This document shows positions 7,083 to 63,464 of a stretch of DNA of 64,000 nt, one piece after another (within the stretch, counting starts at the first letter, position 1; every line of letters starts with the position of its first letter). Location of the stretch: NCBI GenBank assembly GCA_017560125.1, contig JAFYOS010000027.1:208967-272966 (forward strand). Direction: 5' to 3'. Origin of the DNA: Bacteroidaceae bacterium (GTDB taxonomy: Bacteria; Bacteroidota; Bacteroidia; Bacteroidales; Bacteroidaceae). The position numbers and the translations under genes are program-made. The notes under the pieces are model-generated. The model was given only the letters and a program-made list of their open reading frames with translations, searched no databases and was not told the origin of the DNA.

Positions 7083-7882
7083 AGATAAATTGCAACCGAG
7101 GGGATGGCAAGCATTGCGCTGTCGAATCGGTCGAGTATGCCTCCGTGTCCGGGGAGTATGTTACCCGAATCTTTTATTCCCATTTCGCGCTTCATGCACG
7201 ATTCGATAAGGTCGCCCCATGTGCCGGTGACTACAACCACTATTGCCATTCCCATCCATTCCATTGTGCTGAGCATGGGGTGGTAGATGGATAGTATGTA
7301 GGCTGCAACCAGTGCAAGCACGCCGCCACCGATGGAACCCTCCCACGATTTCTTGGGCGAGATGCGCTCGAATAGCTTTCTGCGGCCAATTGCCGAGCCT
7401 ACGAAGTAGGCGCCGCTGTCGCTGCACCACAGGAATATGAAGATAGAGAGGGGCATGATGTAGTTGTATCCTGCGCCTCCGAATGTGGTAAGTATGTTCA
7501 GCATGGCAAAGGGCAGTGCTGCATACAACTGCGACAATGCGAAATAGGCGAAATTGTCGAGTGCGCTTCCGTCGGTCTTGTAGAGCTCGCGTATGAAATT
7601 ATATACAATGAGCATCAGGTAGGGGACAAAGAGCATGAAGGGCGATGTAACCTTGTCGAGCATGAACATGGCAAAGAAAAGGTACATACCGCCTACAACG
7701 GCAAGCATGGTGCTGAAGGTGGTTTTCTTGTACTCGTGTACAAGGTTGCAGAATTCATTTACTGCAAGGCAGGTCACCAGCGCGAAGAGCGCTCCGAAAC
7801 TGATGTTGTTGTACAGGATGGATGCAAGCAGCACAATTCCGAATACTGCTCCTGTAGCTACTCTTACTAATAACTTTTTCAT
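7052..7882 (-). CDS. cdsA: Phosphatidate cytidylyltransferase CdsA
   Basis: A 276-residue polytopic membrane enzyme with about eight hydrophobic segments. It makes CDP-diacylglycerol from phosphatidic acid and CTP for phospholipid synthesis. The C-terminal family signature is complete: SCMKREMGIKDS is followed by LPGHGGILDRFDS. Its ATG overlaps the ftsH stop codon as ATGA (7879-7882), indicating translational coupling at the end of an rsfS-ftsH-cdsA operon. The 3' end overlaps convergent lpxB by 31 bases with no terminator between them. Confidence 0.95.
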   Translation of the reverse strand: MKKLLVRVATGAVFGIVLLASILYNNISFGALFALVTCLAVNEFCNLVHEYKKTTFSTMLAVVGGMYLFFAMFMLDKVTSPFMLFVPYLMLIVYNFIRELYKTDGSALDNFAYFALSQLYAALPFAMLNILTTFGGAGYNYIMPLSIFIFLWCSDSGAYFVGSAIGRRKLFERISPKKSWEGSIGGGVLALVAAYILSIYHPMLSTMEWMGMAIVVVVTGTWGDLIESCMKREMGIKDSGNILPGHGGILDRFDSAMLAIPSVAIYLYFLEAFNVL

Positions 7883-9897
7883 AGGTTTGTAGTCTTTTCA
7901 CTTGCCTCGCTCTCTGTTGCGTTCTCTTGCGGGGCTTCGTGCTCGTTAATATTTGTGTTTGTCTTTGTGTCGTCGTTTGTCGTCGCACCGTTCTTTTCGA
8001 AGATTTCTTCGCTTCGCGATGCCCAGGGGCGCTTGCCGAATATGTTTTCTACATCCTCGGCAAATATCACCTCGCGCTCCATCAGCAGGTTGGCCAGCTT
8101 GCGGTGTCCTTCGCTCTGCTCCGAAAGGATGGTTTTGGCGCGCTCATACTGCTCGTTTATCATGCCCTTCACCTCGTTGTCGATGAGCTCGGCGGTCTTT
8201 TCGCTGTAGGGGCGCTGGAAGCTCATGTCGGCGTTGTTGTTATAGTAGCACAGGTTGGCCAGCTTTTCGCTCATGCCGGCGTATGCTATCATGCCATAGG
8301 CCTGCTTGGTCACGCGCTCAAGGTCGTTCATGGCGCCGGTCGATATGCGGCCTATGAACAGCTCCTCGGCGGCGCGTCCACCCAGTGTGGCGCACATTTC
8401 GTCGAGCATCTGCTCCTTGGTGGTTATCTGACGTTCTTCGGGCAGGTACCATGCGGCGCCGAGTGCTCTTCCGCGCGGAACGATTGTTACTTTTATCAAT
8501 GGGTTGGCGTGCTCGAGGAACCACGAGAGTGTGGCATGTCCGGCTTCGTGCAGAGCGATAGTCTCTTTCTCTTTGTCGGTCATCACCTTGGTTTTCTTTT
8601 CCAATCCACCGATGATGCGATCCACGGCGTCGAGGAAATCCTGCTTGTCAACAGCCTTCTTCTGGTGGCGGGCTGCAATGAGGGCAGCCTCGTTACATAC
8701 GTTGGCGATGTCGGCACCCGAGAAACCGGGGGTTTGACGGGCCAAAAGATCTACATCCACCGATATATCGAGCTTCAAGGGACGCAGGTGTACGCCGAAT
8801 ACCTCCTTACGCTCGTTCAGGTCGGGCAAATCTACGTGTATCTGTCTGTCGAAGCGTCCGGCACGCAGCAGGGCCTTGTCGAGGATATCGACGCGGTTGG
8901 TTGCGGCCATCACTATGATACCGCTGTTTGTGCCGAAGCCGTCCATCTCGGTGAGCAACTGGTTCAGGGTGTTTTCGCGCTCGTCGTTTCCACCCATCGA
9001 TGGGTTCTTGCCACGCGCGCGTCCCACGGCGTCAATCTCGTCTATGAAGATGATGCAGGGCGCTTTCTCCTTGGCCTGACGGAACAGGTCGCGCACGCGC
9101 GATGCGCCCACGCCCACGAACATCTCTACAAAATCGGAGCCCGAGAGCGAGAAGAAGGGCACTTCGGCCTCGCCTGCTACGGCTTTTGCAAGCAGGGTTT
9201 TTCCGGTTCCCGGAGGGCCTACGAGCAGTGCACCCTTGGGTATTTTACCACCAAGGTCGGTGTATCGTTGCGGGTTGCGCAGAAAATCCACTATCTCCTG
9301 CACCTCCTGCTTGGCCTCCTCCTGACCGGCCACATCTTTGAATGTGATGCGATTGGCGTTGTCCTTTTCGAACAGCTTGGCCTTCGATTTTCCTACACTG
9401 AAGACGTTGCCTTGCGCTCCGCCACCGCCGTTCATGCGGCGCATGAGGAATATCCATATACCTATAAATAGTATCAGCGGGAATATATTCCAGAATATTC
9501 CGCCCCAATAGTCGGGCTTCGTTTCGTATTTTATGGTGCCGTTGAATCGGCCTTCGGCCTCTTGGGTGTCGATGAATTCCTCGAATTTCTCTTTGGAGCC
9601 TACTTGCGAGGTTACCATGGGGCGCTCGCCCATACGAGCCGATTTTTCGGTAAATATATATTTAGCCGAGTCGGGTTGTATGTAGGCCTCCACCTCGTCA
9701 TTGTCGAATACCTTTATTTCGCTTACATATCCTTTGGCGATGTATCCTTTAAGCTCCGAGTAGTCGGCCTCCTTCACCATGGAGCTGCCGTTGCCGCCAT
9801 TCAGGTATATGAACAACAGCACGGCTCCTGCTACTATGTAGAGCCATGTGAAATTGAATTGTGGTACTTTTCTTGGTTGCTTGGTATCTTTGTTCAT
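7879..9897 (-). CDS. ftsH: ATP-dependent zinc metalloprotease FtsH
   Basis: A 672-residue membrane AAA protease. The first TM segment is near residues 15-35, followed by a periplasmic domain and a second TM ([15 protein letters not shown]) that ends in a glycine-rich linker. The AAA domain has Walker [14 protein letters not shown] and Walker [17 protein letters not shown] is the zinc site of the C-terminal protease. It degrades membrane and regulatory proteins. I chose the ATG at 9897, which lies 1 base after the rsfS stop codon; an in-frame TTG at 9906 overlaps rsfS and is possible. The acidic, low-complexity C-terminus is normal for Bacteroidota FtsH. Confidence 0.97.
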
Positions 9898-10580: not shown

Positions 10581-11315
10581 ATGAATAGTACTACAATAAA
10601 GGCAAAAGACCCCATGGGTCGTGCCATTGCCGATTATCATGCAGGCGGCAAGACTGCGAAGCTCAGGGTCTTTTCGTCGCAGTTCTACGAGGACGAGATT
10701 CCTGTGGCAACCCTTTTTCGTTCGTTCGACGAGATGCCTGTTCAGGAGCAGGAGGCGTTGCGCCTTTGCCGCGGTCGCGTGCTCGACGTTGGTGCCGGCT
10801 CGGGCTGTCATTCGGTGGAACTGATGGGCCGCGGACTGGATGTGGTTGCGATTGATATATCGGAGCTCTCGGTTGAGGTGATGAAGGAACGTGGCATCGA
10901 TGCCCGCCTTGTGAATTTTTTCGATAAGACCTTCGACGAAAAATTTGATACGGTTCTCATGGCTATGAATGGCATTGGTATCGTAGGCAAAATTGAGCGT
11001 TTGCCCGATTTCTTCATGCGTGTAAAGCAGCTGCTTGCTCCCGGCGGACAGTTGTTGCTCGATTCGTCCGACATACGCTACGTGTTCGAGAACGAGGATG
11101 GCTCGTTGGATATAGATCTTGCGGCCGGCTATTATGGCGAGCTCGACTACCGCATGCAGTACAAGGGCGTGAAGGGCGAAAAATTCGATTGGCTCTATAT
11201 TGACTTCGATACATTGTCGATGTATGCCGAGCAGTGTGGTCTTGTGTGCGAAAAATGTGCCGATGGCGAGCACTACGACTATTTGGCTCGATTGTCGGTG
11301 AAGGCGGCTCAGTAG
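10581..11315 (+). CDS. Class I SAM-dependent methyltransferase, substrate unknown
   Basis: A 244-residue protein with a Rossmann-type methyltransferase fold. Motif I is VLDVGAGSGCHSVEL (near residues 67-81), followed by an acidic motif II (VVAIDIS) and LLAPGGQLLLDSSD as a later motif. A roughly 60-residue N-terminal extension precedes the SAM site. No catalytic motif identifies the acceptor, which could be a small molecule or a macromolecule. The gene sits alone between the tRNA-Gln terminator and a strong bidirectional terminator. Confidence 0.8.
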   Translation: MNSTTIKAKDPMGRAIADYHAGGKTAKLRVFSSQFYEDEIPVATLFRSFDEMPVQEQEALRLCRGRVLDVGAGSGCHSVELMGRGLDVVAIDISELSVEVMKERGIDARLVNFFDKTFDEKFDTVLMAMNGIGIVGKIERLPDFFMRVKQLLAPGGQLLLDSSDIRYVFENEDGSLDIDLAAGYYGELDYRMQYKGVKGEKFDWLYIDFDTLSMYAEQCGLVCEKCADGEHYDYLARLSVKAAQ

Positions 11316-11335
11316 CATTGTAGTTTGTGATGGAT

Positions 11336-11380
11336 AAAAACAGCAGGGGTTGCACCAACGGTGCAACCCCTGCTGTTTTA
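11336..11380. terminator. Bidirectional terminator between the methyltransferase and DUF349 genes
   Basis: A perfect 15-bp inverted repeat (CAGCAGGGGTTGCAC and its complement) has a 5-base loop. It is flanked by A5 on the left and T4 on the right, so it can act for both convergent genes. Confidence 0.93.
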
Positions 11381-11393
11381 TGTATGGTTTTTG

Positions 11394-13244
11394 TTATTTT
11401 TCCATTTCCTCTTCAATCATACGTATTTTCTTGAGTATGATTTCTGCATCCGCTTTGAGCTTTTCAACCTTCTGGTGCATTACATCTACAAGGCTGGCGC
11501 CTTTCTTGTTCGATGCGCTCAGGAAGCCGAGGTTGTTCTCGTAGGTCTTAATCTCGGTCTTCATAGCTTCGTGCTGGCGGATTAGGCGTTCACGCTCGCG
11601 GCTCAAGTTCTCGCCACCCTTTGATATGTTACTGCGGAATTCCGACAGCTTGCGCTCGTTTGCGCTGATGTGCAATCTCTCGTAGATGGCGTCTATTGTC
11701 TCTTTGTACTCCTTGTGGAGTTTGTCCTTGTCCTTGAAGGGCACGTGGCCTATCTTGTTCCACTCCTTGGTAGCTGCAGCAAGTGTAGCCTCCTGCTCCT
11801 CGGGTGTGGCGGTAGCGTCGATGGCCTTCAAGCGGGCGATAATCTCGCGTTTCTGCTTCAGGTTTTCCATCTCCACAGAGCGCTGTGACGAGGTTGCCTT
11901 GTTGCGCTTCTCGAAGAAGTAGTCGCATGCGCCTACGAAACGCTTCCACAGCGAATCGGAGTATTTCTGGGGGATTGCACCGATGCTCTTCCACTCTTTC
12001 TGCAGAGCGGCCAGTTTGTCGGCGGTCTCTTTCCACTCCTCGCTCTCTTTCAACTGCTCGGCCATTTCGCATAGCTGGCGTTTCTTTTCGAGGTTTTCGG
12101 CCAACGACACTTTTACGTTCTTGAAGAAGTCGCTCTTCTGTTTGAAGAACTCGTCGCAAGCGGCACGGAAACGCTCAAATATTTTTAGGTTCATTTTCTG
12201 CGGAGCAAAACCTATCTCCTTCCATTTTGCCTGAAGGTCGAGCACCTCCTGTGTCTTGTCGTTCCAAGCTTGGTATGTGGTGAGCGATGCGAAATCGATC
12301 TGTTCTATTGCTTCGCAGATAGCTGTCTTCTTTTCGAGGTTGATGCGCTCCTTGTCTTTCTTCTCTTCGAAGTGGGCCTGGTGGCGCTTGTTGATGGCTG
12401 TCGATGCACTTTTGAAACGTGTCCATATCTGTTCGCGCAGTTCGGGCGAAACGGGACCCGCGTCGCGGAATTCAATGTGCAGCTGCTGCAACTGGCGCGA
12501 TGCCGAGATTATATCTTTCTCTTCGATGAGTGCCTCGGCTGCCTCGCATATTTTGGTCTTTATTTCGAGGTTTTTCTTGAAATCGTATTCGCGGAATTCG
12601 ATGTTTAGCTTCAGCATGTCGTAGAACTGCTCGGTCAGTTGCTGATACTGTTTCCACAGGTCGTTTACCTTGTCCTGGGGTACGTTCTTTACCTCTTTCC
12701 AGCGTGTCTGTAGGGCTTTGAAGTCGTTTACGGCGGGTGAGCCCTGCTCGGCCTTCTCTACCATCTCCTTCAGCTCGCCCAGTATGGCAAGCTTGGCCTC
12801 GTAGTTGGCCTGCTGCTCTGCTGCCTGCTGCTGCAACCACGCATTGCGCTTCTCTTTGATGATGTTCATTGTCTCCTTGAACTCGGCCTCGAATTGGTCG
12901 GCGGGCGCAGTGAATTCCTCGGCATTGCCGCCGTTATCGATGAATTCTTTGCGCAGGGCTTCAATCTCCATGCTACGAAGCTTGTAGAACTGTATCTTCA
13001 GCATTTCGACCTCGGCTTTGCTGTTGAGTGCATCGTCGCTGTCTGCAATTGCTTTCAGACGCTCGGTTATCTCGCTGCGTGTGGCCTGTTTGGCTGCGGG
13101 CGCAGTAGCCTCGGCGTCTTCGGTTGATGTACTTGTTGCTGTGGCAGCAACTTCTTCGTTCGTAGCGGCATTTATTGCCTGTTCAGGGATACCCGCGATG
13201 TTCTGCTCTTCGAACATGGCGTCGGGTTTCAATGTTTCACTCAT
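11394..13244 (-). CDS. DUF349 repeat protein
   Basis: A 616-residue, highly charged, largely helical protein. An acidic, Ala/Thr-rich N-terminus (about 1-55) is followed by several tandem DUF349 helical repeats. They are recognisable by recurring LWKEIG/WKSIGAIPQKYSDSLWKRF-type segments in which a basic/aromatic helix follows a short proline turn. The C-terminus is coiled coil. DUF349 proteins are widespread in Bacteroidota and have no settled biochemical role; a structural or nucleic-acid-associated function is only a guess. It appears monocistronic, with a TATCTTCG box upstream and a shared terminator downstream. Confidence 0.85.
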   Translation of the reverse strand: MSETLKPDAMFEEQNIAGIPEQAINAATNEEVAATATSTSTEDAEATAPAAKQATRSEITERLKAIADSDDALNSKAEVEMLKIQFYKLRSMEIEALRKEFIDNGGNAEEFTAPADQFEAEFKETMNIIKEKRNAWLQQQAAEQQANYEAKLAILGELKEMVEKAEQGSPAVNDFKALQTRWKEVKNVPQDKVNDLWKQYQQLTEQFYDMLKLNIEFREYDFKKNLEIKTKICEAAEALIEEKDIISASRQLQQLHIEFRDAGPVSPELREQIWTRFKSASTAINKRHQAHFEEKKDKERINLEKKTAICEAIEQIDFASLTTYQAWNDKTQEVLDLQAKWKEIGFAPQKMNLKIFERFRAACDEFFKQKSDFFKNVKVSLAENLEKKRQLCEMAEQLKESEEWKETADKLAALQKEWKSIGAIPQKYSDSLWKRFVGACDYFFEKRNKATSSQRSVEMENLKQKREIIARLKAIDATATPEEQEATLAAATKEWNKIGHVPFKDKDKLHKEYKETIDAIYERLHISANERKLSEFRSNISKGGENLSRERERLIRQHEAMKTEIKTYENNLGFLSASNKKGASLVDVMHQKVEKLKADAEIILKKIRMIEEEMEK

Positions 13245-50471: not shown

Positions 50472-51266
50472 CTACGGGATAAGCAGTTCGCCTGCTGATA
50501 TTGGGGTGTTGTATTCCATTTTGGTGCTTTCCACTATGGGATAGCTTACTCCGTTGTATAGGAATAGATTGCGGCACGAATTCAGCAACCCTGTGGCGTT
50601 GTCGAAATGCCCCTCTATTATCAATGTGCCACCCTCGATGCTTGTTTCGTGGCGCAGGGTGGTGTTGTGCTCGTTGTTTTCTATTTTAATATCTGTGTAG
50701 TCCGAGAATTTTTCGAGCACGTTTTCCATTTTTATGAGCCCCTTCAAACCGGTGGGACTCTTTTTTATTCCCTTATATAGCAATTCTTTATTTTTCCACA
50801 TGTAAACGCTGTCGTTTACAAAAATGTTACACACCTTTATGCTGTCGAAATCTATATCAACCCTTTGTATGATGTTTCCTTCGCTTTGAATACATCTGTA
50901 CTTGCATTTTGCCGGTTCGCCCGTCGATGAGCACTCTACATAGTCGGGGCTTGCCGAATTTACGCGCGCATCAAATTCCAGACAGATGGTGCTTACTTCC
51001 CTTATGGCTTTTATGGCATGGGTTATTATATCCTTTGAACTCATTGGCGATGCGTTTGCTACGTTCGGGCGTAACGGGTTGAACCCCATTATCAGCAGAA
51101 TGGCTATCGCAGCCGCTATTACCGATACCTGTACCACCCGTCGTTGTTTTTTGCTCCTGTTATTCACTTTTTTCAGTATCATCGTGTGGTTCAGATGTTT
51201 TGGGGTCAGCAGCTCTATAATCCTACGTTCTTTTTCGTTGTTTATGCAGTTAAAATCCTTTTCCAT
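50472..51266 (-). CDS. Putative anti-sigma factor with an extracytoplasmic LolA-like domain
   Basis: A 264-residue single-pass protein. The cytoplasmic N-terminus (1-43) is charged. A TM helix lies at about 44-62 (VVQVSVIAAAIAILLIMGF). The outer domain (about 75-264) is beta-rich with LEFDARVNS..., MENVLEKFSDYTDI and VSYPIVESTKMEYNTPIS, which recalls LolA/LppX-type half-barrels that sense outer membrane protein or lipid status. It follows the ECF sigma gene by 20 bases, the standard position for its anti-sigma. The zinc-finger type anti-sigma motif is not evident. Confidence 0.72.
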   Translation of the reverse strand: MEKDFNCINNEKERRIIELLTPKHLNHTMILKKVNNRSKKQRRVVQVSVIAAAIAILLIMGFNPLRPNVANASPMSSKDIITHAIKAIREVSTICLEFDARVNSASPDYVECSSTGEPAKCKYRCIQSEGNIIQRVDIDFDSIKVCNIFVNDSVYMWKNKELLYKGIKKSPTGLKGLIKMENVLEKFSDYTDIKIENNEHNTTLRHETSIEGGTLIIEGHFDNATGLLNSCRNLFLYNGVSYPIVESTKMEYNTPISAGELLIP

Positions 51267-51286
51267 AATATGTTGTAGCTAAATGG

Positions 51287-51796
51287 TTATATATCGGCTT
51301 TCTCTATCTCTTTTCTAAGTTTTTCTATACCATACTTGAAACGCGATTTTGCAGTGGTTATAGGTATTTTCAATATGTCTGCAATATCGACGAAGGTTCT
51401 GTTTCCATGTATGTGCAATCTTATAACCTCGCTCTGTTCATCGGGTATTATGTCGAGTAGTGTATTTATGAGATTGAATTCCTCTTCGATGTTCCTGGGC
51501 TCCGTTTCAGCGATATTGGTGAGCTCTGTACCCTCTATGCTGATAGTATTATTTTGTTGGCGTTTGCGTAACAGCAGGGTGCAGTTGTTCGATAGGGCGC
51601 GGTAAATGTAACTTTTAAGGTTCTCTATCTCATTCAATTGTTCACCTTTAGAGTACATGGATAAATATAGATTTTGTATAATGTCTTCTGCGTCCTGCTT
51701 GTCTCCAAGGCGGTAATAGGCATAACGATAAAGGTTCTTCAGTTCATTTTCTATCGTTTCGGTTAGTTTAATGGTTATTTTTTTCTTGAAAATCAT
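51287..51796 (-). CDS. ECF-type RNA polymerase sigma factor
   Basis: A 169-residue sigma-70 family member with region 2 (LYRYAYYRLGDKQDAEDIIQN) and region 4 (FVDIADILKIPITTAKSRFKYGIEKLR) only, as in ECF factors. The adjacent downstream gene is a likely membrane anti-sigma. The pair is divergent from the oxalate operon across 196 bases, so control of frc-oxc is possible but not shown; ECF factors often control their own operon. Confidence 0.92.
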   Translation of the reverse strand: MIFKKKITIKLTETIENELKNLYRYAYYRLGDKQDAEDIIQNLYLSMYSKGEQLNEIENLKSYIYRALSNNCTLLLRKRQQNNTISIEGTELTNIAETEPRNIEEEFNLINTLLDIIPDEQSEVIRLHIHGNRTFVDIADILKIPITTAKSRFKYGIEKLRKEIEKADI

Positions 51797-51992
51797 AGAT
51801 TCATTTTTTACGTTTCTATCAATATGATGTTCAGTGATACAAAAAGACGTAAAAATAGGTTTGTTTTTTATAAAAAATATAATCTATACGTGTCGCTTCA
51901 TTTCGGCATACAAACCTAAATCCAATTCTGTTGTTATTAGTCAGTGAAGCGCATTGCGCAAATTAGTTATCAATTTTTTAATAAACAAGATT
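51797..51992. promoter_or_regulatory. Divergent control region, ECF sigma / oxalate operon
   Basis: TAGGTTTG on the plus strand (51856-51863) could serve as a -7 box for frc, with a leader of about 120 bases. The same octamer in reverse (CAAACCTA, 51911-51918) gives a minus-strand box for the sigma gene. The two boxes face each other, so the transcripts would overlap by about 35 bases. Neither has a clear -33 element, so an ECF-type promoter remains possible. Confidence 0.4.
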
Positions 51993-53264
51993 ATGACAGC
52001 ACCATTAAAAGGAATCAGAGTAATCGACTGGACACAGGTACAGTCCGGTCCTTCGTGTACACAAATGCTCGCGTGGTTGGGCGCCGATGTTATCAAGATT
52101 GAACGTACCGGAGTGGGCGATCCTACACGCACCGAGTTGCTCGACAAGCCCGGCCTCGATGGCATCTACTACCTGCAGCTCAACTGTAACAAACGCTCTA
52201 TCGAGCTCGATATGAAGACTCCCGAGGGCAAGGAAATCCTAACCCGCCTGCTGAAGACGGCCGATATTTTCGTCGAGAACCTTCACCCCGGTGCAGTTGC
52301 CAAGCTGGGCTTCTCGTGGGATGAGGTACACAAGATAAATCCTCGCGTGATTTATGGAACCATCAAGGGGTTCAATGACGATTCTCCCTTTGCGAGCGTA
52401 AAGGCATTCGAGCCCGTGGCACAGTGTGCGGGCGGTGCGGCTGCAACCACCGGCTGGTGGAAGGGCGAGTACAATATCCCCACGCAGTCGGGTGCAGCGC
52501 TTGGCGATAGTAACACAGGTATGCACCTGCTTATAGGTCTGCTTGCGGCTCTCATGCAGCGCGAAAAGACCGGCGAGGGATGCTTCGTGGAGCAGTCGAT
52601 GCAGGATGCGGTTATCAACCTCTGCCGCATAAAGCTACGCGACCAGCAGATACTGGAGCACACCGGCGTGCTGAAGCATTTGCCGCAGTATCCTAAAGAA
52701 AAATTCGGTAACACCGTTCCCCGCGGCGGTAACGTCGAAGGTGGTCAGGTGCTTGGTTGGTGCTATCGTTGCAAGGGATGGGAGAGCGATCCCAATGCCT
52801 TTGTATATATTGTGCTGCAGAACGAGGAGAAACCCTTTGCCGATGCTTGCCGTGCGATTGGTAAGCCCGAATGGATTACCGATCCCAAATACAATACACC
52901 GGCTGCACGCAACGAGGTCAAGGAGGAGATTTATGCCGCCATCGAGAAATTTACCATGACCAAGGACAAGATAGAGGTAGTGCGCGAGCTCGGAAAGGCC
53001 GGCGTACCCTGCGGCCCCGTCCTCAGCATGCTCGAGATAGAGAACGACGAGTCGTTGCGCAAGTGCGGAACCATTGTAGAGGTTGACCAGCCCAAGCGCG
53101 GTAAGTTCATCACCATTGGTTGTCCTCCCAAGTTCTCGAACTACAAACCCGAGGTGAAGGCGGCTCCTCTTTTGGGCGAGCACACCGACGAGGTGCTCAA
53201 GGAGATAGGCTATACGCCCGCCGAAATAGCACAGCTTCGTAGCAAACATGTCGTATGCAAATAA
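51993..53264 (+). CDS. frc: Formyl-CoA:oxalate CoA-transferase
   Basis: A 423-residue class III CoA-transferase. It moves CoA from formyl-CoA to oxalate in the cytoplasm. The start at 51993 aligns with known enzymes; an open frame from 51954 adds unrelated residues. Gln17 lies in [11 protein letters not shown], catalytic Asp172 in [12 protein letters not shown], and the flexible glycine loop in [27 protein letters not shown] is nearly identical to the E. coli enzyme as I recall it. One departure is Glu48 where Trp is usual. It is the first gene of frc-oxc-AEC, 10 bases before oxc. Confidence 0.94.
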
Positions 53265-53274
53265 AAATGATATT

Positions 53275-54975
53275 ATGACAACCGGACAAGATAATCTAAC
53301 AGATGGCATGCACCTGATGGTGGATGCACTGAAGAAAAACGGAGTGGAAACGATATTCGGCGTTGTTGGTATTCCTGTTACCGACCTTGCGCGTCACGCC
53401 CAAGAGGTGGGCATACGCTACATTGGTTTCCGCCACGAGCAGTCGGCGGGCAATGCAGCCGCCATCAGCGGATTCCTTACCAAGAAACCCGGCATTTGCC
53501 TCACCGTGTCGGCGCCGGGCTTCCTGAATGGCCTCACCGCTCTTGCCTGTGCCACCATAAACGGTTTCCCCATGATACAGATAAGCGGCTCGAGCAACCG
53601 CAATATCATCGACCTGCAACAAGGCGATTACGAGGGGCTCGACCAGATGAATGTGGCAAAGCCGTTTGCCAAGGCGGCCTATCGCATCAACCGTCCCGAG
53701 GATATTGCCGTTGGCGTGGCGCGTGCCATACGCACTGCGGTGTCGGGACGTCCCGGCGGTGTCTATCTCGATATAACCACTGCCATGCTCTCGGCAACCA
53801 TCGACGCCGATGTTGCGGCCAAGTCCCTCTTTGTTCCCGTGGATCCTGCCCCCAAGCAGATACCCTCGAATAGTGCCGTGGAGCGTGCCATGCGCCTGCT
53901 TGCACAGGCCAAGAAGCCGCTCATAATCATAGGCAAGGGTGCCGCATATTCCCAGGCCGACGAGGCTGTGAAAAATTTTGTCGAGAAGAGTGGCATTCCA
54001 TACCTTCCCATGTCTATGGCCAAGGGATTGCTGCCCGACAACCACAAGCAGTGTGCCGCTTCGGCGCGTGGCTATGTGCTTGGTAACGCCGACGTGGTGA
54101 TGCTGCTTGGTGCCCGACTGAATTGGTTGCTCACCCATGGCAAGGGAAAAAAGTGGAACCCCGATGCGCAGTTCATTCAGCTCGATATCGATGCCACCGA
54201 GATTGACAGCAACCGCCCGATAGCTGCCCCCGTGGTGGGTGACATCGGCTCCTCGCTGTCGCTCATGCTCGACAAGCTGAGCAGTTACCCCATGCAGCCA
54301 TGCAAGGAGTGGTGCGATGCCATCGACAAAATTAAGAGCGAGAACAGCACCAAAATGGCAACCAAGCTTAGCAGCACCTCTCAGCCAATGAACTACTTCA
54401 ATGCTCTGAAGGCTATCAGCGATGTGCTCGACAAGCATCGCGACATATATGTGGTCAACGAGGGTGCAAATACGCTCGATGATACCCGCAACGTCATCAA
54501 TATGTACCATCCGCGCCGTCGTCTCGACTGCGGCACATGGGGTGTCATGGGTGTGGGAATGGGCTATAGCATCGCTGCTGCCGTCACCGGCAAGCGCCCG
54601 GTAATAGCCATCGAGGGCGACAGTGCGTTCGGTTTCAGCGGCATGGAGGTAGAAACCATCTGCCGTTACAAACTGCCTGTGACCATCGTTGTCTTCAATA
54701 ACAACGGCATATATCGCGGCACCGACAAGAACCTCGGCGGTGGCAGCGACCCTGCGCCCACGACACTAACCATTGGCGCTCGTTACGACAAGATGATAGA
54801 GGCCTTTGGAGGCGCTTCGTTCAATGCCACCACCCCCGAGGAACTGCGCACGGCGGTCGAGGGTGGCCTGCAGTCGGGCAAGCCCACGCTCGTCAACTGC
54901 GTGATAGATCCATCGGTGGGGCTCGAAAGCGGTCACATAGGTAATCTTAATCCCAAATCAACCATTAAGAAATAG
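53275..54975 (+). CDS. oxc: Oxalyl-CoA decarboxylase
   Basis: A 566-residue ThDP-dependent decarboxylase that turns oxalyl-CoA into formyl-CoA and CO2. The start at 53275 is 10 bases after frc. The catalytic Glu55 is in FRHEQSAGNAAA. The ThDP/Mg site is GDSAFGFSGMEVE with a downstream NNN (448 onward), and ICRYKLPVTIVVFNNNG is close to the Oxalobacter enzyme. The central domain (about 195-350) binds nucleotide activator in relatives. Together with frc it forms a closed cycle that regenerates formyl-CoA and releases formate, consuming one proton per oxalate. Confidence 0.96.
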   Translation: MTTGQDNLTDGMHLMVDALKKNGVETIFGVVGIPVTDLARHAQEVGIRYIGFRHEQSAGNAAAISGFLTKKPGICLTVSAPGFLNGLTALACATINGFPMIQISGSSNRNIIDLQQGDYEGLDQMNVAKPFAKAAYRINRPEDIAVGVARAIRTAVSGRPGGVYLDITTAMLSATIDADVAAKSLFVPVDPAPKQIPSNSAVERAMRLLAQAKKPLIIIGKGAAYSQADEAVKNFVEKSGIPYLPMSMAKGLLPDNHKQCAASARGYVLGNADVVMLLGARLNWLLTHGKGKKWNPDAQFIQLDIDATEIDSNRPIAAPVVGDIGSSLSLMLDKLSSYPMQPCKEWCDAIDKIKSENSTKMATKLSSTSQPMNYFNALKAISDVLDKHRDIYVVNEGANTLDDTRNVINMYHPRRRLDCGTWGVMGVGMGYSIAAAVTGKRPVIAIEGDSAFGFSGMEVETICRYKLPVTIVVFNNNGIYRGTDKNLGGGSDPAPTTLTIGARYDKMIEAFGGASFNATTPEELRTAVEGGLQSGKPTLVNCVIDPSVGLESGHIGNLNPKSTIKK

Positions 54976-54978
54976 TGT

Positions 54979-55923
54979 ATGATTGATATTCTTATAAAAG
55001 ATATTCTCCCGATTTTTGTGATTATGTTCCTTGGATATGCATCGGGAAAGAGCAAGGTGTTCAGTTACGAGAATGCTCAGGTATTCAATAAACTGGTGTT
55101 GAACTATGCCCTTCCGGCCGCGCTCTTCATTTCCATTGTGAAGGCCGACAGGACGATGCTTTTCAACGACCTGAAGCTCACGATCATCAGCCTTGTGATT
55201 ATAACGGGAGTATTTCTGTGGTCCTACTTCTCGTGCTACAAGTTTTTCAAGCACACGAAGAGCGAGGCGGCTGTGTGTGCCCTCATTTCGGGTTCACCCA
55301 CCATCGGCTTCCTGGGATTTGCGGTGCTCGAGCCTATCTATGGAGCAACTGCAAGCACGGGATTGGTGGTTGCAATCATCTCCATTGTGGTGAATGCCAT
55401 AAACATCCCCATTGGTATGGCGCTAATGAATGCTGGTGGCACTCAACAACAGGGTGGCAAAAAGAGCAACCCGGTGCTCAGCGCGCTTGCCGAGCCGGTC
55501 TGCTGGGCTCCTATTTTGGCGGTGATAATGGTGCTGCTTGGCATTAAATTCCCCACCATCCTCGACCCCAACTTCGAATTGATTGCCAAGGCCAATGCCG
55601 GCGTAGCTGTCTTTGCGGCCGGTCTTACGCTGTCGGGCATGAAATTCCAGATGGATAAGGAGGTTGCCTATAATGCCATTGTGAAACTGGTGGTAATGCC
55701 CGGTCTGCTGTTGCTCGTGGGCTGGATATTCGGAATGAAGGCCGATAATTTGCAGATGATGGTTTTGGCCGGCGCTTTGCCTCCCGCCTTCTCGGGTATA
55801 ATCATCGGCAGCCGCTATCAGATGTATGTACGCACCGGTACATCTTCCTTGGCGTTCAGTATATTCGCTTTTATTGTAGCTGCGCCGCTGTGGATATGGA
55901 TTGCCCGTATGGTGGCGTCGTAA
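54979..55923 (+). CDS. AEC family transporter (YfdV-like), probable oxalate/formate carrier
   Basis: A 314-residue membrane protein with about ten TM helices in the two-half AEC (auxin efflux carrier) layout. It begins [24 protein letters not shown], with [18 protein letters not shown] and [16 protein letters not shown] as the motif regions. It starts 3 bases after oxc. E. coli yfdV is an AEC protein in the same place in the frc-oxc operon. Oxalobacter instead uses the MFS antiporter OxlT, which is absent here. Transport of oxalate, formate or both is inferred from operon position. Confidence 0.85.
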
Positions 55924-55928
55924 ATATG

Positions 55929-55970
55929 AATGAAAAATGGAACCGACTAATTTCGGTTCCATTTTTCATT
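55929..55970. terminator. Bidirectional terminator between the oxalate operon and dus
   Basis: A perfect 18-bp inverted repeat (AATGAAAAATGGAACCGA and its complement) with a 6-base loop. The A5 and T5 runs within the arms serve both convergent directions. Confidence 0.88.
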
Positions 55971-55973
55971 GTT

Positions 55974-56903
55974 TCAATATCTCGCAAGTGCATTGTTTAC
56001 GGCTGCCAAATATTTTTCGGCGGTCGATGCCTTGCTTATGGCCTTGCGGTCGCGCTTTTCCATGTCGGGTAACAGATATTCCCAGTAGGGCTTCATTTTG
56101 CTAAGTATCTGTGTGTTGCCTTGCAGACGTGGTGACATGGCATCGTAGAATCGGTTGTGGAATGTGGATAGCTGCGATGCCTTTTCGCCGTGCGAAAGGG
56201 TGCGTTTCTCCTTGTACTCCTTTCCCATTGCGGGGTTGGCCAGCAGACCGCGTCCAATCATCACACCCTCGAGTCGTGGGAAGCGTGTGGTTATGCGGCA
56301 TATATCATCGGTCGATGTCAGGTCGCCGTTGTAAACGAGCGGGTGGCGGCACTCCTCGTGGAACAGCGCGAATTCTTCTACATCGGCAGCGACCTTGTAC
56401 TGTTCGCGTCCCAAACGAGGGTGCATTGTTATGCGCGATAGCTTTGTGTCGTTCAGGATGGGCAATATGTGGCGCCACTCCTCTTTGCTGTCCCAACCCA
56501 AGCGCATTTTCACCGAAAAGGATATTTCGGGGAATTTTTCTGTCGCCTTCATCAGCGCGGCAACCTCGTCGGGGTAGGGGAGCAGTCCGGCACCGTGGTG
56601 CTTGCGCACCTGCAGTGCGAACGAGCAGCCCATGTTTATGTCTATCTCGTTATATCCTTCTCCGGCGATATATTCAACGATGGGCGTGAGCTCCTCGGGG
56701 GTGGCTGCAATGAGCTGCGGTATCAGGTGGGCTACGCTGTTGTTCTTTTTTTCTACATCGCGCATGTCCTTGCTGCGTATGACGCCTTTTTCTATTCTAA
56801 GGAATGGGGTTACATATGTGTCTATCCCGCCAAACACTTCGCTGTGTATGTTGCGCCATGTGGCTTCGGTAAATCCCTGTAGTGGTGCTGCAAATATCTT
56901 CAT
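55974..56903 (-). CDS. tRNA-dihydrouridine synthase family protein
   Basis: A 309-residue FMN-dependent TIM-barrel reductase. It begins IFAAPLQGFTEATWR. The catalytic Cys lies in DINMGCSFALQVRKHHGAG (near residue 100), VKMRLGWD and ITMHPRL contact FMN and tRNA, and YNGDL and MIGRGLLANP bind FMN phosphate. The motif reads GCS rather than the usual GCP. Such enzymes reduce uridines in tRNA; the DusA/B/C specificity cannot be set here. It starts 34 bases after the GH5-GH43 gene on the same strand, so read-through is possible. Confidence 0.88.
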   Translation of the reverse strand: MKIFAAPLQGFTEATWRNIHSEVFGGIDTYVTPFLRIEKGVIRSKDMRDVEKKNNSVAHLIPQLIAATPEELTPIVEYIAGEGYNEIDINMGCSFALQVRKHHGAGLLPYPDEVAALMKATEKFPEISFSVKMRLGWDSKEEWRHILPILNDTKLSRITMHPRLGREQYKVAADVEEFALFHEECRHPLVYNGDLTSTDDICRITTRFPRLEGVMIGRGLLANPAMGKEYKEKRTLSHGEKASQLSTFHNRFYDAMSPRLQGNTQILSKMKPYWEYLLPDMEKRDRKAISKASTAEKYLAAVNNALARY

Positions 56904-56937
56904 ATTTAATAGTTCTCTTTTATATATGTGAGCGTGC

Positions 56938-59900
56938 CTACTCGGCCTCGTTGCAAAGATAGATATTTTCTATGGTAAACGGAACCCCTCCCGTTGTCCA
57001 GAAACCGATAATATGCACATGCTCGGCTGCAAACCTCTTCGATTTATCTCTATTTCTCGCAATCTGCTCGGTGGATATGACCAAGCGCTTTTTGTCGTTA
57101 AAATCGAATGTGGCACAGTCGCTCCAGTAGTTGTTCTCGTCGAACAGGCGGAACGACAGTGCAGCGCCTTCGCCGCCGCTTATCTCCACCACCAGATATT
57201 TGTAGCGGGTAAGGTCTATTCCGTTGTCGTATCGCCAGCCCGCAAAACCATATTTGCCGGTGGTTACAGTGCGGCTCTTCTCGTCGAATGTGCCACGCTC
57301 CCAAATGGATGGGTTGAATTCGCCCTGAAGCAATGGGAATGTGGTGGCGGTTATCTCCATGGTTGCGCTCTGCTGTTCGCCGCGTGCCCCTTTGTATTTT
57401 GCCGTCACCTGCGTCTTTCCATCCTTCAGTGCGGTCAGGCGGCCGTTCGACAGCGATATTATCTCCTTGTCGTAGTCGCTGTATGTGGCCAACGAAGATA
57501 TGTCGGCGGTGTGCCCGTCCTTATAGGTGGCGGTAAGCTCTATGGCGCGTGCGCTGCCTGTGAGCAGCGTGGTTGCGTTGCCTTTGGCGAATTCTATTTT
57601 CTCTACGCTAAGCGATTCCTCGCTGTACCCTTCGAAGTGGTCGTCGTAGAAGATGCCCTCTTCGAACCGTGGCTCGGTGCTGAACCAATCGACATCGATG
57701 TGTCCGCCCAACCCTTTTGTTGCGTAGTTGAATATGGCAAATTTGTTCCCCGTAAACACTGAAAGGTCGTATCGCATGGTGAATTCCGCACCGAATTCCT
57801 TGTATGTGGTGTTGTCGGTGCTGTAGTAGAAGCGTGCCTTGCTGCTACTATAGTCTGTCACTATGCGCAGGTAGAGCGTGGTGGCTTTTATGCGTTCGCC
57901 CATGCTCTCGGTCTTGTCGTTTTTGCGTAGCGATAGGGTGGAGTGCATGATGTATCTTTTTCGTCCTACCTGCTTGACGGCTATGAACGCCGATGGGTCT
58001 TGCATTACGGCAAGGCCGGCAATGTCGCCATCCTTCATCTTGGATATATCCATTGCGATGGTGCCGTATGTAAGGCCGTCGCTGTGGTGGTAACCAAGAA
58101 TGCGCTGTGTGAGTGTGTTGCGTGCGCTGTACAGGTTGTCCGTTACGCTTGCCGTATATAGGCGCAGATAGCCGGGGCGTTCGGTGAGCGACCATCGGCT
58201 GTTGTCGCTGTTGTGGTTCCATCCCCATTGCAATCCCATGTCGTAGTGGCGGAAATTGTCGTTGGTGACAAGTCCGTTGTTCCTGTATTCCTTTAGCGAT
58301 GGCTTTCTGTATATCTCGCTCTTGTCGCTGTTTACCTGAATGGCGGGCCATCCATCCTTCCATTCTACGGGCAGCAGATAGGGCATGCGGCCATAGGCGC
58401 CACGGTCGGCAAAAAGCATTGTCCACCACTCGCCGCCCTCGGTGTTTATAAGTGCTCCTTGGTGGATATTCCTATCGTCGAGCAGAAATTTTTCTTCGTA
58501 TGGGCCGAATATGTTTTTCGAGCGGAATATGGTCTGGTAGGCTGGTACGCCGCCATATGTGGCATATATGTAGTAATAATCGCCTATTTTGTAGAGGCGG
58601 CTTCCTTCGAGGCCGGGCTTTACGCTCTGTTTGGCCACTACGCGTTCTTCTATTTTATTGAAATGCTTATCGACCTTGGCTATGCGTATGTTGTCTATGC
58701 CATGTGCAACGTATATGTCGTCGCCATCGAACAGCACACCGCAGTCGTAGTAGCCGGTGGCGAGCTTGCGCTTGTTCCACGGGCCTTTAATGTTGTCCGA
58801 TGTGAGTAGGTAGCTGCCCTCGTCCAGTGTGGTGAAAAGGATATAGTAGATACCTTTGTTATATTGCAATGCGGTGGCCCATTGTCCGTGGCCGTAGCGC
58901 TGTTTGCCGTTCTCCAGGTTGTATGCCTCGCTCTTTTCTATCGATTCGAGCGGGTTGTAGCAGTATTCCCAGTGGACGAGGTCTTTCGACTGCAATATGG
59001 TGGCACCGGGGAATATGTGCATGGTGGTGGATATCATGTAGTATGTGTCGCCTACGCGTATCACATCGGGGTCGGGGAAATCGCCGAATATCACCGGGTT
59101 GGCGAAGCGGTGGGCGTCGCAGTCGGCTGTCGATGTGCGGGTGAACGCTTTGCGAGGGTAGTGGCTCTTGGCATACTCCTTGTACCAATGGTATATGGGC
59201 CAGGGACAGGCCTCGGGGTCGTTCAGGAATGTGTAGTTCCCGTCTTTTGCCGGTTCGTCCTTGAAGGCCGCAAGGTGCTCGGGCGATGTGAACAGCAACC
59301 AGCTTACATTTCCTGCATCGTCGGTTATCTTCTTGAAATTGGCGCCGAAATTGCCGTCGCCGGCTACGCCTGTATGTGCCTTGCCCCACGAGGCATTATA
59401 TTTTTTGTCGGCCCAGTCCATTTCGGTAATCATCACCGGCGCAAAATCGGCAACGGGTTGCACGTCGGCTTGCCAGCCTCGCGAGAAGGCTTCGTAGTTG
59501 TGGCTGCTTCCGAACCATCCGGGATATATGTGCACTGCATAGCCTATGTTCTCGCCCTTGATGGGGTAGTCGGCATATCCGGCATATTTCGATTGGTAGC
59601 CGAGGCCGGGTATCCATAGTATGTTATTGCATCCTTGCGCGCGCATGCTATCTGTTATCTCCTGAAAATAGATGCTCAGCTGCTCGAAGTGCGCTTTGGC
59701 GTTTCCGCCGACCGTACCGTCGCTTCCAACTATGTTTATAGGTTCGTTGGCAAGCTCAAACATGATGTTGGGGTGGTTTTTCAGCTTGTGGTGCTGTGCC
59801 ACGTGGCGCCATACTTTTATCAGATACTTCTGATAGTAGTCGCCAACGGCTATCTTTTCGGGACACACCCCGGGCGGGCGCATCACCACGTAGAGCCCTT

Positions 59901-60330
59901 TAGATATGGCATATTCGGCCATGGGGATGAAGACCTCGTCGAGGTATTTTGTGAAACGGTTGAAATCGAATGCCGAAATGTCGTTCTCGCCCTTCACGCG
60001 GCGTCCGGGTATGTTCGACCAATAGGGGTCCATGTGCATGCGTACGAAGCTCATTTTCCAACCGGCCGACATGATGCCGTCTATGATACGTTTATTATAG
60101 CCGAGGCAACCCTCTACATCGTAGTTGTTCCATCGACGCCCCTGTTCGTTGAACCATGGACTGAAGGTCTGGGCGTAACCGTGTAGCTTGACGATGTTGC
60201 CGTTCTCGTCTTTCAAGTGCTTGCCATCTACCTTCAGGCGTGGCATCTCCATACCCTCCCATGCATGCAGTTTGTTGCATGTGAGCAGCAATGTGATTAA
60301 AATCAGTGTGTGGATAGTTGTTTTTAGCAT
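56938..60330 (-). CDS. Exported multidomain glycoside hydrolase, GH5 + GH43 + Ig-like + C-terminal carbohydrate-binding-like domain
   Basis: An 1130-residue protein with a signal peptide (1-23, ending LHA). The GH5-like barrel (about 28-395) has acid/base Glu196 in FELANEPIN and nucleophile Glu303 in VMITEMDW. A GH43 five-bladed propeller (about 408-690) follows, with base Asp420 in FGDFPDPDVI, modulator Asp529 in YYDCG and acid Glu575 in KPGLEGS. Next are a beta-sandwich typical of large GH43 enzymes (about 690-890), a Big_2 Ig-like domain (about 905-990; TYKDGHTADISSLATYS) and a jelly-roll-like C-terminus. The two catalytic units suggest coordinated attack on a branched hemicellulose, perhaps arabinoxylan. 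There is no adjacent SusC/SusD. Confidence 0.9.
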   Translation of the reverse strand: MLKTTIHTLILITLLLTCNKLHAWEGMEMPRLKVDGKHLKDENGNIVKLHGYAQTFSPWFNEQGRRWNNYDVEGCLGYNKRIIDGIMSAGWKMSFVRMHMDPYWSNIPGRRVKGENDISAFDFNRFTKYLDEVFIPMAEYAISKGLYVVMRPPGVCPEKIAVGDYYQKYLIKVWRHVAQHHKLKNHPNIMFELANEPINIVGSDGTVGGNAKAHFEQLSIYFQEITDSMRAQGCNNILWIPGLGYQSKYAGYADYPIKGENIGYAVHIYPGWFGSSHNYEAFSRGWQADVQPVADFAPVMITEMDWADKKYNASWGKAHTGVAGDGNFGANFKKITDDAGNVSWLLFTSPEHLAAFKDEPAKDGNYTFLNDPEACPWPIYHWYKEYAKSHYPRKAFTRTSTADCDAHRFANPVIFGDFPDPDVIRVGDTYYMISTTMHIFPGATILQSKDLVHWEYCYNPLESIEKSEAYNLENGKQRYGHGQWATALQYNKGIYYILFTTLDEGSYLLTSDNIKGPWNKRKLATGYYDCGVLFDGDDIYVAHGIDNIRIAKVDKHFNKIEERVVAKQSVKPGLEGSRLYKIGDYYYIYATYGGVPAYQTIFRSKNIFGPYEEKFLLDDRNIHQGALINTEGGEWWTMLFADRGAYGRMPYLLPVEWKDGWPAIQVNSDKSEIYRKPSLKEYRNNGLVTNDNFRHYDMGLQWGWNHNSDNSRWSLTERPGYLRLYTASVTDNLYSARNTLTQRILGYHHSDGLTYGTIAMDISKMKDGDIAGLAVMQDPSAFIAVKQVGRKRYIMHSTLSLRKNDKTESMGERIKATTLYLRIVTDYSSSKARFYYSTDNTTYKEFGAEFTMRYDLSVFTGNKFAIFNYATKGLGGHIDVDWFSTEPRFEEGIFYDDHFEGYSEESLSVEKIEFAKGNATTLLTGSARAIELTATYKDGHTADISSLATYSDYDKEIISLSNGRLTALKDGKTQVTAKYKGARGEQQSATMEITATTFPLLQGEFNPSIWERGTFDEKSRTVTTGKYGFAGWRYDNGIDLTRYKYLVVEISGGEGAALSFRLFDENNYWSDCATFDFNDKKRLVISTEQIARNRDKSKRFAAEHVHIIGFWTTGGVPFTIENIYLCNEAE

Positions 60331-60369: not shown

Positions 60370-60494
60370 GCTACAAACGAGCGAGAAAAAACGAAGCAGG
60401 CTTTAATATTTTGGTGAACGGCCAAAAAATATCTCCAACGTCTGTAATATCCAAAAAATGGAGTGGCTATATGGCTCGGTTGCAATTTATTCCC

Positions 60495-62083: not shown

Positions 62084-62153
62084 TCCTACGGCTGCGAACA
62101 TTGGTGTGGGGTGGTTGTTATATATGTCGTATGTCTGTTTTTAAGTGTGGATC

Positions 62154-63464
62154 ATGAGATATTTATTTATAACCATATTTGCAATTTTGTTGTTTGTTAT
62201 GTTTACATTCGCTCAGAAAAAGTATCCCAATGCAGCCGAGTCGGTTCCTAGCGTCACGGGCTATATGCAGGGCTTCCCGCCCGATACGGCCTTTGCCATT
62301 TCGGCACGCGACGGCTCGTTTTTCAAATTCCCGGCCTTAAGGTATAGCGTGGTTCACATGCGCGAATTTATGCCTACAATAAATGTGCCGCGCGGAAACA
62401 TGGTGCCCGTGTCCCATTTCGATTACGAATTGGACGACGAAATCGATTCGTTGACGTTTCTGCCAACGGGCGGCGACCGCAAAGTCACTTGGCGCGAGTC
62501 GCTCGACCTTAATTACACCGATGGTATAATCGTTCTCCACAAGGGCAAGGTGGTTTACGAAAAATATTTCGCCGAGCTTACCCCCGAGCGCGTCCATGCT
62601 GTGATGTCGGTCACAAAATCTTTTACCGGATTGCTGGCGGCTGCCCTTTATGCCGAGGGAAAGCTCGACCCCGCAAAGCTTGTCCGCGACTATGTCCCCG
62701 AACTGGCCGCCTCGGGGTTTGGTGATGCAAGGGTGCGACAGCTGATGGATATGACGACGGCACTGAAATATAGCGAGGATTATTCCGATCCTATGGCCGA
62801 GGTGTGGGATTTTTCGGCAGCCGGTAATCCTATGATATCCCATAGTGGCGGGATAGATGGTTACTACAAATATCTCGAAACGGTGCAGAAGAGTGGCGAA
62901 CATGGCAATGTGTTCGGCTATCGCACGGTCAATGCCGATGCCTTGGGATGGGTGCTTGCCCGCATAACCGGAAAGTCCGTTTCGCAGTTGCTCACCGAAT
63001 ATATCTGGTCGCGTATGGGTATGGAGCAGGATGCCTATTACCAGGTCGATGCCTTGGGTGTCCCCTTTGCCGGCGGCGGTCTCAATGCCTCGCTTCGCGA
63101 CCTTGCACGCGTCGGCGAAATGTTGCGCAATAACGGAATGTGGCGTGGTGAACGTATTTTGTCCATTGGCGCTGTCGAGGATATTCTTCACGGCGGCAAC
63201 CGGCAAGCCTTTGCGTGCTCCGAACAGGCCAAAACCCTCAAAGGGTGGAGCTATCGCAATATGTGGTGGATTACCAATAACAGCCATCACGCCTACATGG
63301 CACGCGGCGTTCACGGGCAAGCCATATACATCGACCCCGTGGCCTCCATGGTTATAGTGCGACTGGCCTCCACCTATCTGTCGAGCAACATACTTATCGA
63401 TCCACTTTCGTTGCCGGCCTACGAGGCTGTAGCCGAATATTTAATGCTGAAAGGCGGCGATTAA
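62154..63464 (+). CDS. Exported serine hydrolase, beta-lactamase/DD-peptidase fold (class C-like)
   Basis: A 436-residue protein. The ATG at 62154 gives a signal peptide ending FTFAQ; a GTG at 62145 is also open. The catalytic motif SVTKS sets Ser152 and Lys155, and YRTVNADALG gives the Tyr-x-Asn-like second motif. HGQAIYIDP near the end would replace the KTG strand motif (His-x-Gly version). The fold is shared by class C beta-lactamases, esterases and D-aminopeptidases. Antibiotic resistance should not be assumed; envelope hydrolysis or an esterase role is equally plausible. Confidence 0.85.
   Translation: MRYLFITIFAILLFVMFTFAQKKYPNAAESVPSVTGYMQGFPPDTAFAISARDGSFFKFPALRYSVVHMREFMPTINVPRGNMVPVSHFDYELDDEIDSLTFLPTGGDRKVTWRESLDLNYTDGIIVLHKGKVVYEKYFAELTPERVHAVMSVTKSFTGLLAAALYAEGKLDPAKLVRDYVPELAASGFGDARVRQLMDMTTALKYSEDYSDPMAEVWDFSAAGNPMISHSGGIDGYYKYLETVQKSGEHGNVFGYRTVNADALGWVLARITGKSVSQLLTEYIWSRMGMEQDAYYQVDALGVPFAGGGLNASLRDLARVGEMLRNNGMWRGERILSIGAVEDILHGGNRQAFACSEQAKTLKGWSYRNMWWITNNSHHAYMARGVHGQAIYIDPVASMVIVRLASTYLSSNILIDPLSLPAYEAVAEYLMLKGGD

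Follow-up and report, generated by a model that had tools for sequence, protein, structure and literature searches.

A predicted frc-oxc-AEC oxalate-degradation operon with a distinct gut-type formyl-CoA transferase in the Bacteroidaceae

The operon and its gene products

The DNA analysed here, a stretch of 64,000 nucleotides of contig JAFYOS010000027.1 from a member of the Bacteroidaceae (in the following: the window), carries three consecutive genes, frc, oxc and aec, the products of which were identified as homologues of formyl-coenzyme A (CoA):oxalate CoA-transferase (FCOCT; Frc), of oxalyl-CoA decarboxylase (Oxc) and of the carrier YfdV, a member of the AEC family (Table 1). All three open reading frames (ORFs) are intact and located on the plus strand, with a gap of 10 bases between frc and oxc and of 3 bases between oxc and aec. 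When scored against the respective NCBIfam equivalogs, Frc reached 668.7 bits (TIGR03253, cut-off 504.2), Oxc 959.5 bits (TIGR03254, cut-off 739.4) and the AEC protein 432.7 bits (NF007384, transporter YfdV, cut-off 404), whereby the latter also matched PF03547 with 195.8 bits. Chance is excluded as the origin of three such above-cut-off scores. The three-gene operon, which had been proposed with these coordinates, gaps and family assignments in an initial annotation of the window, is hence borne out by the intact frames and by equivalog scores that each exceed the curated cut-off. Profile comparison furthermore matched the AEC protein to plant PIN8 chains across both halves (E 7.6e-11). The host genome, assembled into 37 contigs with a total of 2.61 Mb (completeness 98.46%, contamination 6.41%), belongs to the Bacteroidaceae, which agrees with the Bacteroidales-type chromosome assumed before, and as five genes neighbouring the operon share order with their orthologues (76-97% identity) in the congeneric genome G186 (locus L182), the operon does not reside on a stray contig.

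In E. coli, the genes yfdW-yfdU-yfdV, which are part of yfdXWUVE, show the gene order, strand and three families found in the window, as had been stated previously and as was borne out by comparison of the loci, and the encoded proteins are 60% (Frc), 64% (Oxc) and 62% (AEC) identical to those of the window. E. coli possesses yfdX and yfdE in addition, whereas in the window's genome the frc of the operon is the sole match to the class III CoA-transferase family PF02515 (E <= 1e-5). Both enzyme families are also common to the window and Oxalobacter formigenes, whereby the structures 1p5h and 2c31, which we take to stem from this organism, are matched over nearly their full length. The active-site loop of O. 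formigenes Frc differs from that of the window, and O. formigenes employs the antiporter OxlT (PMC3720670). The difference from Oxalobacter to which the initial annotation had pointed is reflected in the window's genome, where neither a member of the OxlT family (TIGR04259) nor a FocA/FNT-type channel was matched at E <= 1e-5. As a consequence, the AEC protein is the best candidate for an oxalate carrier among the three families searched. The contig of the operon contains a second match to PF03547 some 67 kb farther upstream, which is weak and partial (25.7 bits, at the cut-off). YfdV itself is described as unassigned in PMC3720670.

Sequence evidence could not make the predicted decarboxylation step more certain than it is. 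E56, Y120, E121, Y483 and S553 (O. formigenes numbering) are present in the window's Oxc as in all 75 rows of the alignment, and for the first four, mutation of a mycobacterial Oxc backs the assigned role (PMC7190790). Outside these five catalytic positions, some of the additional positions examined vary, and a single position in the whole protein separates 19 proteobacterial rows from 29 rows of the group termed gutA here, which comprises the Bacteroides group, family f78 and Cetobacterium, while gutM denotes the Bacteroidales family f26. The window's Oxc was found to be closer to that of Providencia and Moellerella (69-71% identity) and of Cetobacterium (72%) than to that of f26 (49-59%). 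The root of the Oxc tree is formed by one very long row (4.99) and was hence disregarded.

The remodelled Frc loop and the Frc phylogeny

Catalytic Asp172 of the window's Frc, which corresponds to Asp169 of the O. formigenes enzyme, and Gln17 are retained; the Asp was found in 98 of 98 proteobacterial, 26 of 26 gutA and 20 of 20 f26 rows, and Gln17 in every row reaching this position. Against the ACOCT/YfdE model NF008511, Frc scored 167.9 bits at a cut-off of 522. According to the alignment, EGGQVL takes the place of the active-site loop GGGGQP identified in the solved structures 1p5h (O. formigenes), 1pt5 (E. coli YfdW) and 3ubm (presumably from Acetobacter aceti). Compared with E. coli, which combines GGGGQP with Gln48, the window's Frc thus possesses both an altered loop and Glu48.

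Loop types were counted for Frc ORFs of at least 300 codons with a readable loop in the loci available. The E-type loop is present in 29 of 29 ORFs from the Bacteroides group (some genomes being represented twice; 21 are distinct), in 2 of 2 from f78, in 2 of 2 from Cetobacterium and in 24 of 24 from f26, and reads EGGQV[LM] in gutA as compared to EG[SG]GVL in f26. The G-type loop [GS]GGxQP was identified in 109 of 110 proteobacterial ORFs, the exception being truncated, and it occurs together with Gln48 in Frc from plasmid records, three of them actinobacterial and two further ones proteobacterial. At position 48, Glu is found in 24 of 26 gutA rows and in all 20 f26 rows, as opposed to Gln in all 98 proteobacterial rows.

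For the Frc tree, loop and residue 48 were excluded and actinobacterial FCOCT homologues (Actinomycetota) served as outgroup; rooting on an ACOCT row resulted in a branch length of 10 and was unusable. Gut-type Frc forms one clade (25 rows, support 100/100), which has a stem of 0.75 and neighbours the Frc of Gammaproteobacteria and Acetobacter, so that the window's Frc nests within the proteobacterial FCOCTs. A grouping of the enzymes with non-oxalate CoA-transferases or acetolactate-type decarboxylases, which had been named as the outcome speaking against the operon, did not appear, as Frc falls inside the FCOCTs and Oxc keeps its catalytic set. On this tree, residue 48 undergoes two changes and the loop state a single one, the latter on the stem that the Bacteroidaceae, f26, f78 and the Cetobacterium plasmids have in common. 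Since Cetobacterium Frc combines the gut-type loop with a retained Gln48, the loop may have changed before residue 48. Within the gut clade, f26 is placed beside locus L022 of a Bacteroides metagenome-assembled genome (MAG; support 84/95), a position which suggests that f26 Frc may rather derive from other gut forms.

The extent of change differs between the three proteins. Fixed differences were counted over the same loci after removal of duplicate genomes, with 26 gutA and 18 proteobacterial rows (8 proteobacterial rows for AEC), and amount to 22 in Frc, 2 in Oxc and 11 in AEC between gutA and Proteobacteria, while Frc is the least variable within gutA (mean identity 0.85 vs 0.75 for Oxc). 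Between f26 and Proteobacteria, the respective numbers are 42, 24 and 32. The initial annotation was right as to families, gene order, rarity and a link to the Muribaculaceae, and it had missed both the Frc loop and the kinship of Oxc.

Distribution, genomic setting and neighbourhood

Counted as matches above the family cut-off and with the window's own genome included, Oxc was found in 15 of 399 genomes of the Bacteroidaceae, which fits the rarity previously assumed for this family; genome G279 has a split copy below the cut-off. The corresponding counts are 5 of 44 for the genus, 3 of 5 for family f78 and 6 of 393 for genomes drawn across the order, and in f26 59 of 198 genomes exceed the cut-off and 117 of 198 match at E <= 1e-150. 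Over an 800-base core, genome G112 of the window's family is identical to Phocaeicola barnesiae DSM 18169 (L015), and G252 and G304 of the window's genus are the MAGs SIG131 and RGIG7201. Among the 18 named Bacteroides-group loci that carry the closest operons, with L020, L022, L024 and L025 placed in this group solely by their record labels, frc-oxc-aec are consecutive and in one orientation in 16 (L003 starts inside frc and L007 ends inside aec). Eight of the 18 are labelled as originating from water buffalo, cattle, sheep, goat or roe deer gut. In L022 (MAG UBA7333), a YfdE equivalog (8748-9884; NF008511 575 bits, cut-off 522) with the motif GNRD rather than GNxH directly follows aec, hence the complete E. 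coli order frc-oxc-yfdV-yfdE is found there. In L024 (2547-6062) and L025 (7899-11411), both from uncultured Bacteroides MAGs, a pyruvate:ferredoxin oxidoreductase of 1170-1171 residues (TIGR02176, 1751-1755 bits) is located about 150-180 bases after oxc, and no AEC gene is found at this place.

Family f26 is probably identical with the Muribaculaceae, an assignment which rests on prevalence and literature: oxc was described as widespread in Muribaculaceae (PMC6381624), and the frc/oxc pair was reported for 19 of 30 genomes of S24-7, i.e., Muribaculaceae, with a permease adjoining oxc in all 19 (PMC4936053). The identical trio with the permease beside oxc is hence documented for this family (PMC4936053, PMC6381624), as had been stated in the initial annotation. 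Provided that f26 represents the Muribaculaceae, their gene order is that of the window (four f26 loci) and their Frc loop likewise begins with Glu. Compared with the window, f26 Frc is 42-62% and f26 AEC 51-58% identical (partial genes are included in these values and in that for Oxc), and f26 forms an own long-branch clade in the Oxc, Frc and AEC trees. The low f26 Oxc identity and this separate clade speak against a Muribaculaceae origin of the window's operon.

Outside the Bacteroidota, the nearest relatives in the collections searched are the frc-oxc-AEC genes on plasmids of Cetobacterium somerae (Fusobacteriota; NZ_CP092522.1 and NZ_CP143323.1, 128-137 kb), and for Oxc also those of Providencia and Moellerella. 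Gene order and loop of the Cetobacterium operon are as in the window, and its Frc is 79-81% identical to the window's; genes for a FomA-type porin and for a cupin are found on its flanks. In L119, the FomA-type porin gene (7789-8910, 281.7 bits) follows the operon, and in L186 a gene of equal length occupies this place (10789-11910); the porin may possibly serve as outer-membrane entry for oxalate in Cetobacterium. An exchange of the operon between phyla, in either direction, would be the simplest reading of these relationships. Phage carriage was considered and rejected, as two viral-contig scans confirmed no relative and a phage collection yielded five records at <=31% identity. A different oxalate-type cluster is present on plasmid p1 of Streptomyces fungicidicus (L193, 1293-7215), where the genes between which frc is located encode a ThDP (thiamine diphosphate) protein with no more than 28-29% identity to Oxc, a protein resembling acetate-CoA ligase and an MFS transporter of the OFA family.

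The five oxc-bearing members of the genus carry the operon in three distinct genomic settings. In G186 and G366, it adjoins the ABC gene (PF00005) which in the window is found at 60463, and in SIG131 and RGIG7201 none of the available operon neighbours matches genes of the window's 40-64 kb region. Within the genus, Frc is 90-93%, Oxc 83-88% and AEC 85-89% identical. Three settings together with proteins this similar indicate that the operon moves while its proteins stay conserved. In the window, the operon is flanked by GH95 on the left and dus on the right, and contig C26 of G186 (L182) has an insert-free site, in which GH95 and dus are adjacent with neither the operon nor the divergent sigma factor pair between them. 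Recent foreign origin as judged from composition was likewise rejected as weak, given that the GC content of the operon is 54.2% as compared to 50.9% in windows of the same length (z 2.24) but that at third codon positions (GC3) resembles that of the neighbours.

In the open literature, as covered by titles and abstract openings, no paper on the Bacteroidaceae operon or on the variant Frc loop was found. Oxc has been recorded in Bacteroidia and Fusobacteria (PMC7190790), and Muribaculaceae oxc in human gut metagenomes (PMC8062136), and genomes bearing oxalate genes were reported to include those of Bacteroides and Muribaculaceae (PMC12045624); the accessible part of PMC10258309 gives a correlation with Muribaculaceae and nothing further.

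Table 1. Features of the operon region (window coordinates)
Feature	Position	Strand	Description
frc	51993..53264	+	ATG 51993, stop 53262-53264; class III formyl-CoA:oxalate CoA-transferase homologue with gut-type loop
Glu48 codon of frc	52134..52136	+	O. formigenes has Trp48; proteobacterial and actinobacterial sequences used for comparison have Gln
EGGQVL codons of frc	52737..52754	+	residues 249-254; replaces the active-site loop GGGGQP (O. formigenes 258-263)
oxc	53275..54975	+	ATG 53275, stop 54973-54975; oxalyl-CoA decarboxylase, ThDP enzyme, 566 residues
aec	54979..55923	+	ATG 54979, stop 55921-55923; AEC-family carrier, YfdV type, 314 residues
Inverted repeat, 18 bp	55929..55970		RNA fold -25.7 kcal/mol, z -7.35, 0/200 shuffles as stable
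Dyad GCGCATTGCGC, 11 bp	51949..51959		33 bases 5' of frc start; candidate operator, weak evidence
ECF sigma factor and 264-residue gene behind it	50472..51796	opposite strand, divergent from operon	264-residue gene anti-sigma-like by position alone

The hairpin behind aec is likely a terminator, predicted to be common to aec and the convergent dus gene; it was not among the outputs of a consensus terminator scan. Upstream of frc, the dyad is a possible operator. Its pattern GCGCAWTGCGC matches once in the window (0.15 expected; present in 14 of 100 window shuffles) and also occurs in 17 proteobacterial loci; its mirror is found in SIG131 (L176, 11807-11817), likewise 33 bases 5' of frc, with the DNA farther upstream being different, and it is absent at the equivalent place in G186 and G366. 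A scan for sigma-70-type promoters gave 1 match (4.6 expected from shuffles), and the Rfam scan of 51000-57000 identified no family. Control by the divergent pair of extracytoplasmic function (ECF) sigma factor and following gene, the latter without Pfam or NCBIfam match, was rejected, as the pair is not near the operon in SIG131, G186 and G366, the three congeners with upstream DNA (the RGIG7201 contig starts inside frc). Farther downstream, the window encodes a protein of 1130 residues which combines a GH5-type cellulase domain with GH43 and a GH43 C-terminal domain (56938-60330), as well as a 439-residue protein assigned to the serine hydrolase family Beta-lactamase of Pfam (62145-63464, 115.4 bits).

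Proposed pathway and alternative explanations

The locus is interpreted as a complete type II oxalate-degradation operon with a distinct gut-type Frc, which would convert oxalate to formate, and to this reading we assign a probability of roughly 0.82; most likely, it provides a functional pathway, the CoA-transferase of which represents a new subtype. Oxalate would be imported by the AEC carrier, whereupon Frc would transfer CoA from formyl-CoA to oxalate, yielding oxalyl-CoA and formate. Oxc would subsequently decarboxylate oxalyl-CoA to formyl-CoA and CO2, a step which would use one proton, and formyl-CoA would return to Frc, thereby closing the cycle. Formate would probably leave via the AEC carrier in exchange, or else as formic acid, whereby an electrogenic oxalate/formate exchange, and the proton-motive force or acid tolerance which it might yield according to the initial annotation, are put forward as hypotheses. 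Part of the formate may be used by formate-tetrahydrofolate ligase, which the genome encodes once, on another contig (C1). The previous statement that no formate-using enzyme is nearby hence stands for the 12 neighbour genes scanned (41-63.5 kb), among which none was recognised, but has to be qualified for the genome as a whole. For the window's Frc, it is considered most likely that it is a gut-type FCOCT homologue catalysing the same reaction.

Several points weigh against this interpretation. Residues E48 and E249 occupy positions which we take to be substrate-facing in characterised enzymes, and an acidic pair would be unexpected where the oxalate dianion has to be bound; AEC carriers, in turn, include transporters of other acids and of auxin. 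The glycine-rich loop GGNAGGGGQPGW, a membership feature of the family, is not found in the window's Frc, the loop of which deviates from the pattern G-G-N-A-G-G-G-G-Q-P-G-W, and this loop region was proposed as a means of distinguishing enzyme functions (PMC3720670); judged by it, the window's Frc would fall into neither class. As Frc is devoid of the published diagnostic loop, the transferase step is the least certain step. The Frc comparison sample does not extend to Lactobacillus and Bifidobacterium, the contrast between a changed Frc and an unchanged Oxc is clear in gutA and weaker in f26, and the four other genus members bearing oxc are 84-87% complete. All transport and catalytic steps are deduced from sequence, and the accessible literature demonstrates activity, expression or transport for no Bacteroidales protein of the operon.

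Alternatively, the operon may act as an acid-stress or detoxification module, which would consume protons or remove incoming oxalate as in E. coli, with no useful proton-motive force being gained, and this is regarded as a serious contender at somewhat less than even odds. Its gene order equals that of the E. coli acid-tolerance operon (PMC3720670), and its patchy spread over the genus suggests a facultative trait, as was argued likewise for S24-7 (PMC4936053), yet the 12 neighbours scanned include no recognisable acid-response regulator, yfdX not having been searched for in the genome. Energy and acid-stress uses are moreover compatible with each other, and it is the carrier stoichiometry that would tell them apart.

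A further suggestion, considered rather unlikely, retains oxalate as substrate and assumes that the remodelled loop enables Frc to accept CoA from an abundant thioester, for instance succinyl-CoA or acetyl-CoA, so that no YfdE-type transferase is needed. As no second class III CoA-transferase was matched in the genome, Frc may have to prime its own cycle. YfdE adjoins the operon in E. coli and is present in both E. coli/Klebsiella loci, in the Acetobacter locus and in 2 of 6 Providencia/Moellerella loci; among the 20 named gut-type loci, some of which have short downstream flanks, L022 alone has the YfdE equivalog. The much greater change in Frc than in Oxc within gutA fits this idea, and promiscuous FCOCTs were proposed to dispense with a priming enzyme (PMC3720670). 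However, the same paper, in its accessible part, reports that the acetyl-CoA reaction is supported by no FCOCT family member and that O. formigenes Frc is promiscuous. Since the alignment shows the ordinary GGGGQP loop in the latter enzyme, the loop change is not required for promiscuity. Furthermore, the search for a primer covered class III, while class I CoA-transferases were not searched for. An extended version of this suggestion holds that gut anaerobes evolved once a second kind of FCOCT, with an acidic loop and residue 48 and self-priming from a central thioester, which together with a YfdV-type carrier replacing OxlT would form a self-sufficient three-gene cassette spreading between phyla, plasmid-borne in Cetobacterium; as a whole, this scenario is judged unlikely.

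It is highly improbable that Frc has shifted to another carboxylate and that the operon handles an oxalate-like or oxalate-derived compound. While the loss of the published diagnostic loop and the glutamates at positions 48 and 249 in place of neutral residues would agree with such a shift, Oxc, which is oxalyl-CoA-specific according to PMC3720670, keeps its five catalytic positions with one type-specific position and remains in the operon across families, and Frc retains Asp169, Gln17 and its equivalog score, scoring far below the cut-off of the ACOCT model. Least probable of all is a cryptic, unexpressed or decaying acquired operon, to which the patchy occurrence in three genomic settings among five genus members might point, but against which stand the three intact frames, the high conservation within the genus, the conserved gene order, the strong hairpin behind the operon and the neighbour-like GC3.

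If the favoured oxalate-to-formate reading holds, the pathway is of a known kind, and what is new, as far as searched, is the remodelled and singly derived type of Frc. Its loop offers a direct test of the choice of CoA donor and acid in class III CoA-transferases, and since gut-type Frc does not match the printed search motif, a survey based on this motif would miss it. Breakdown of oxalate in the gut is relevant to kidney stones, of which oxalate is the main ingredient, and to oxalate poisoning in grazing animals, and the operon places this pathway in the Bacteroidaceae, including the named cultured strain P. barnesiae DSM 18169.

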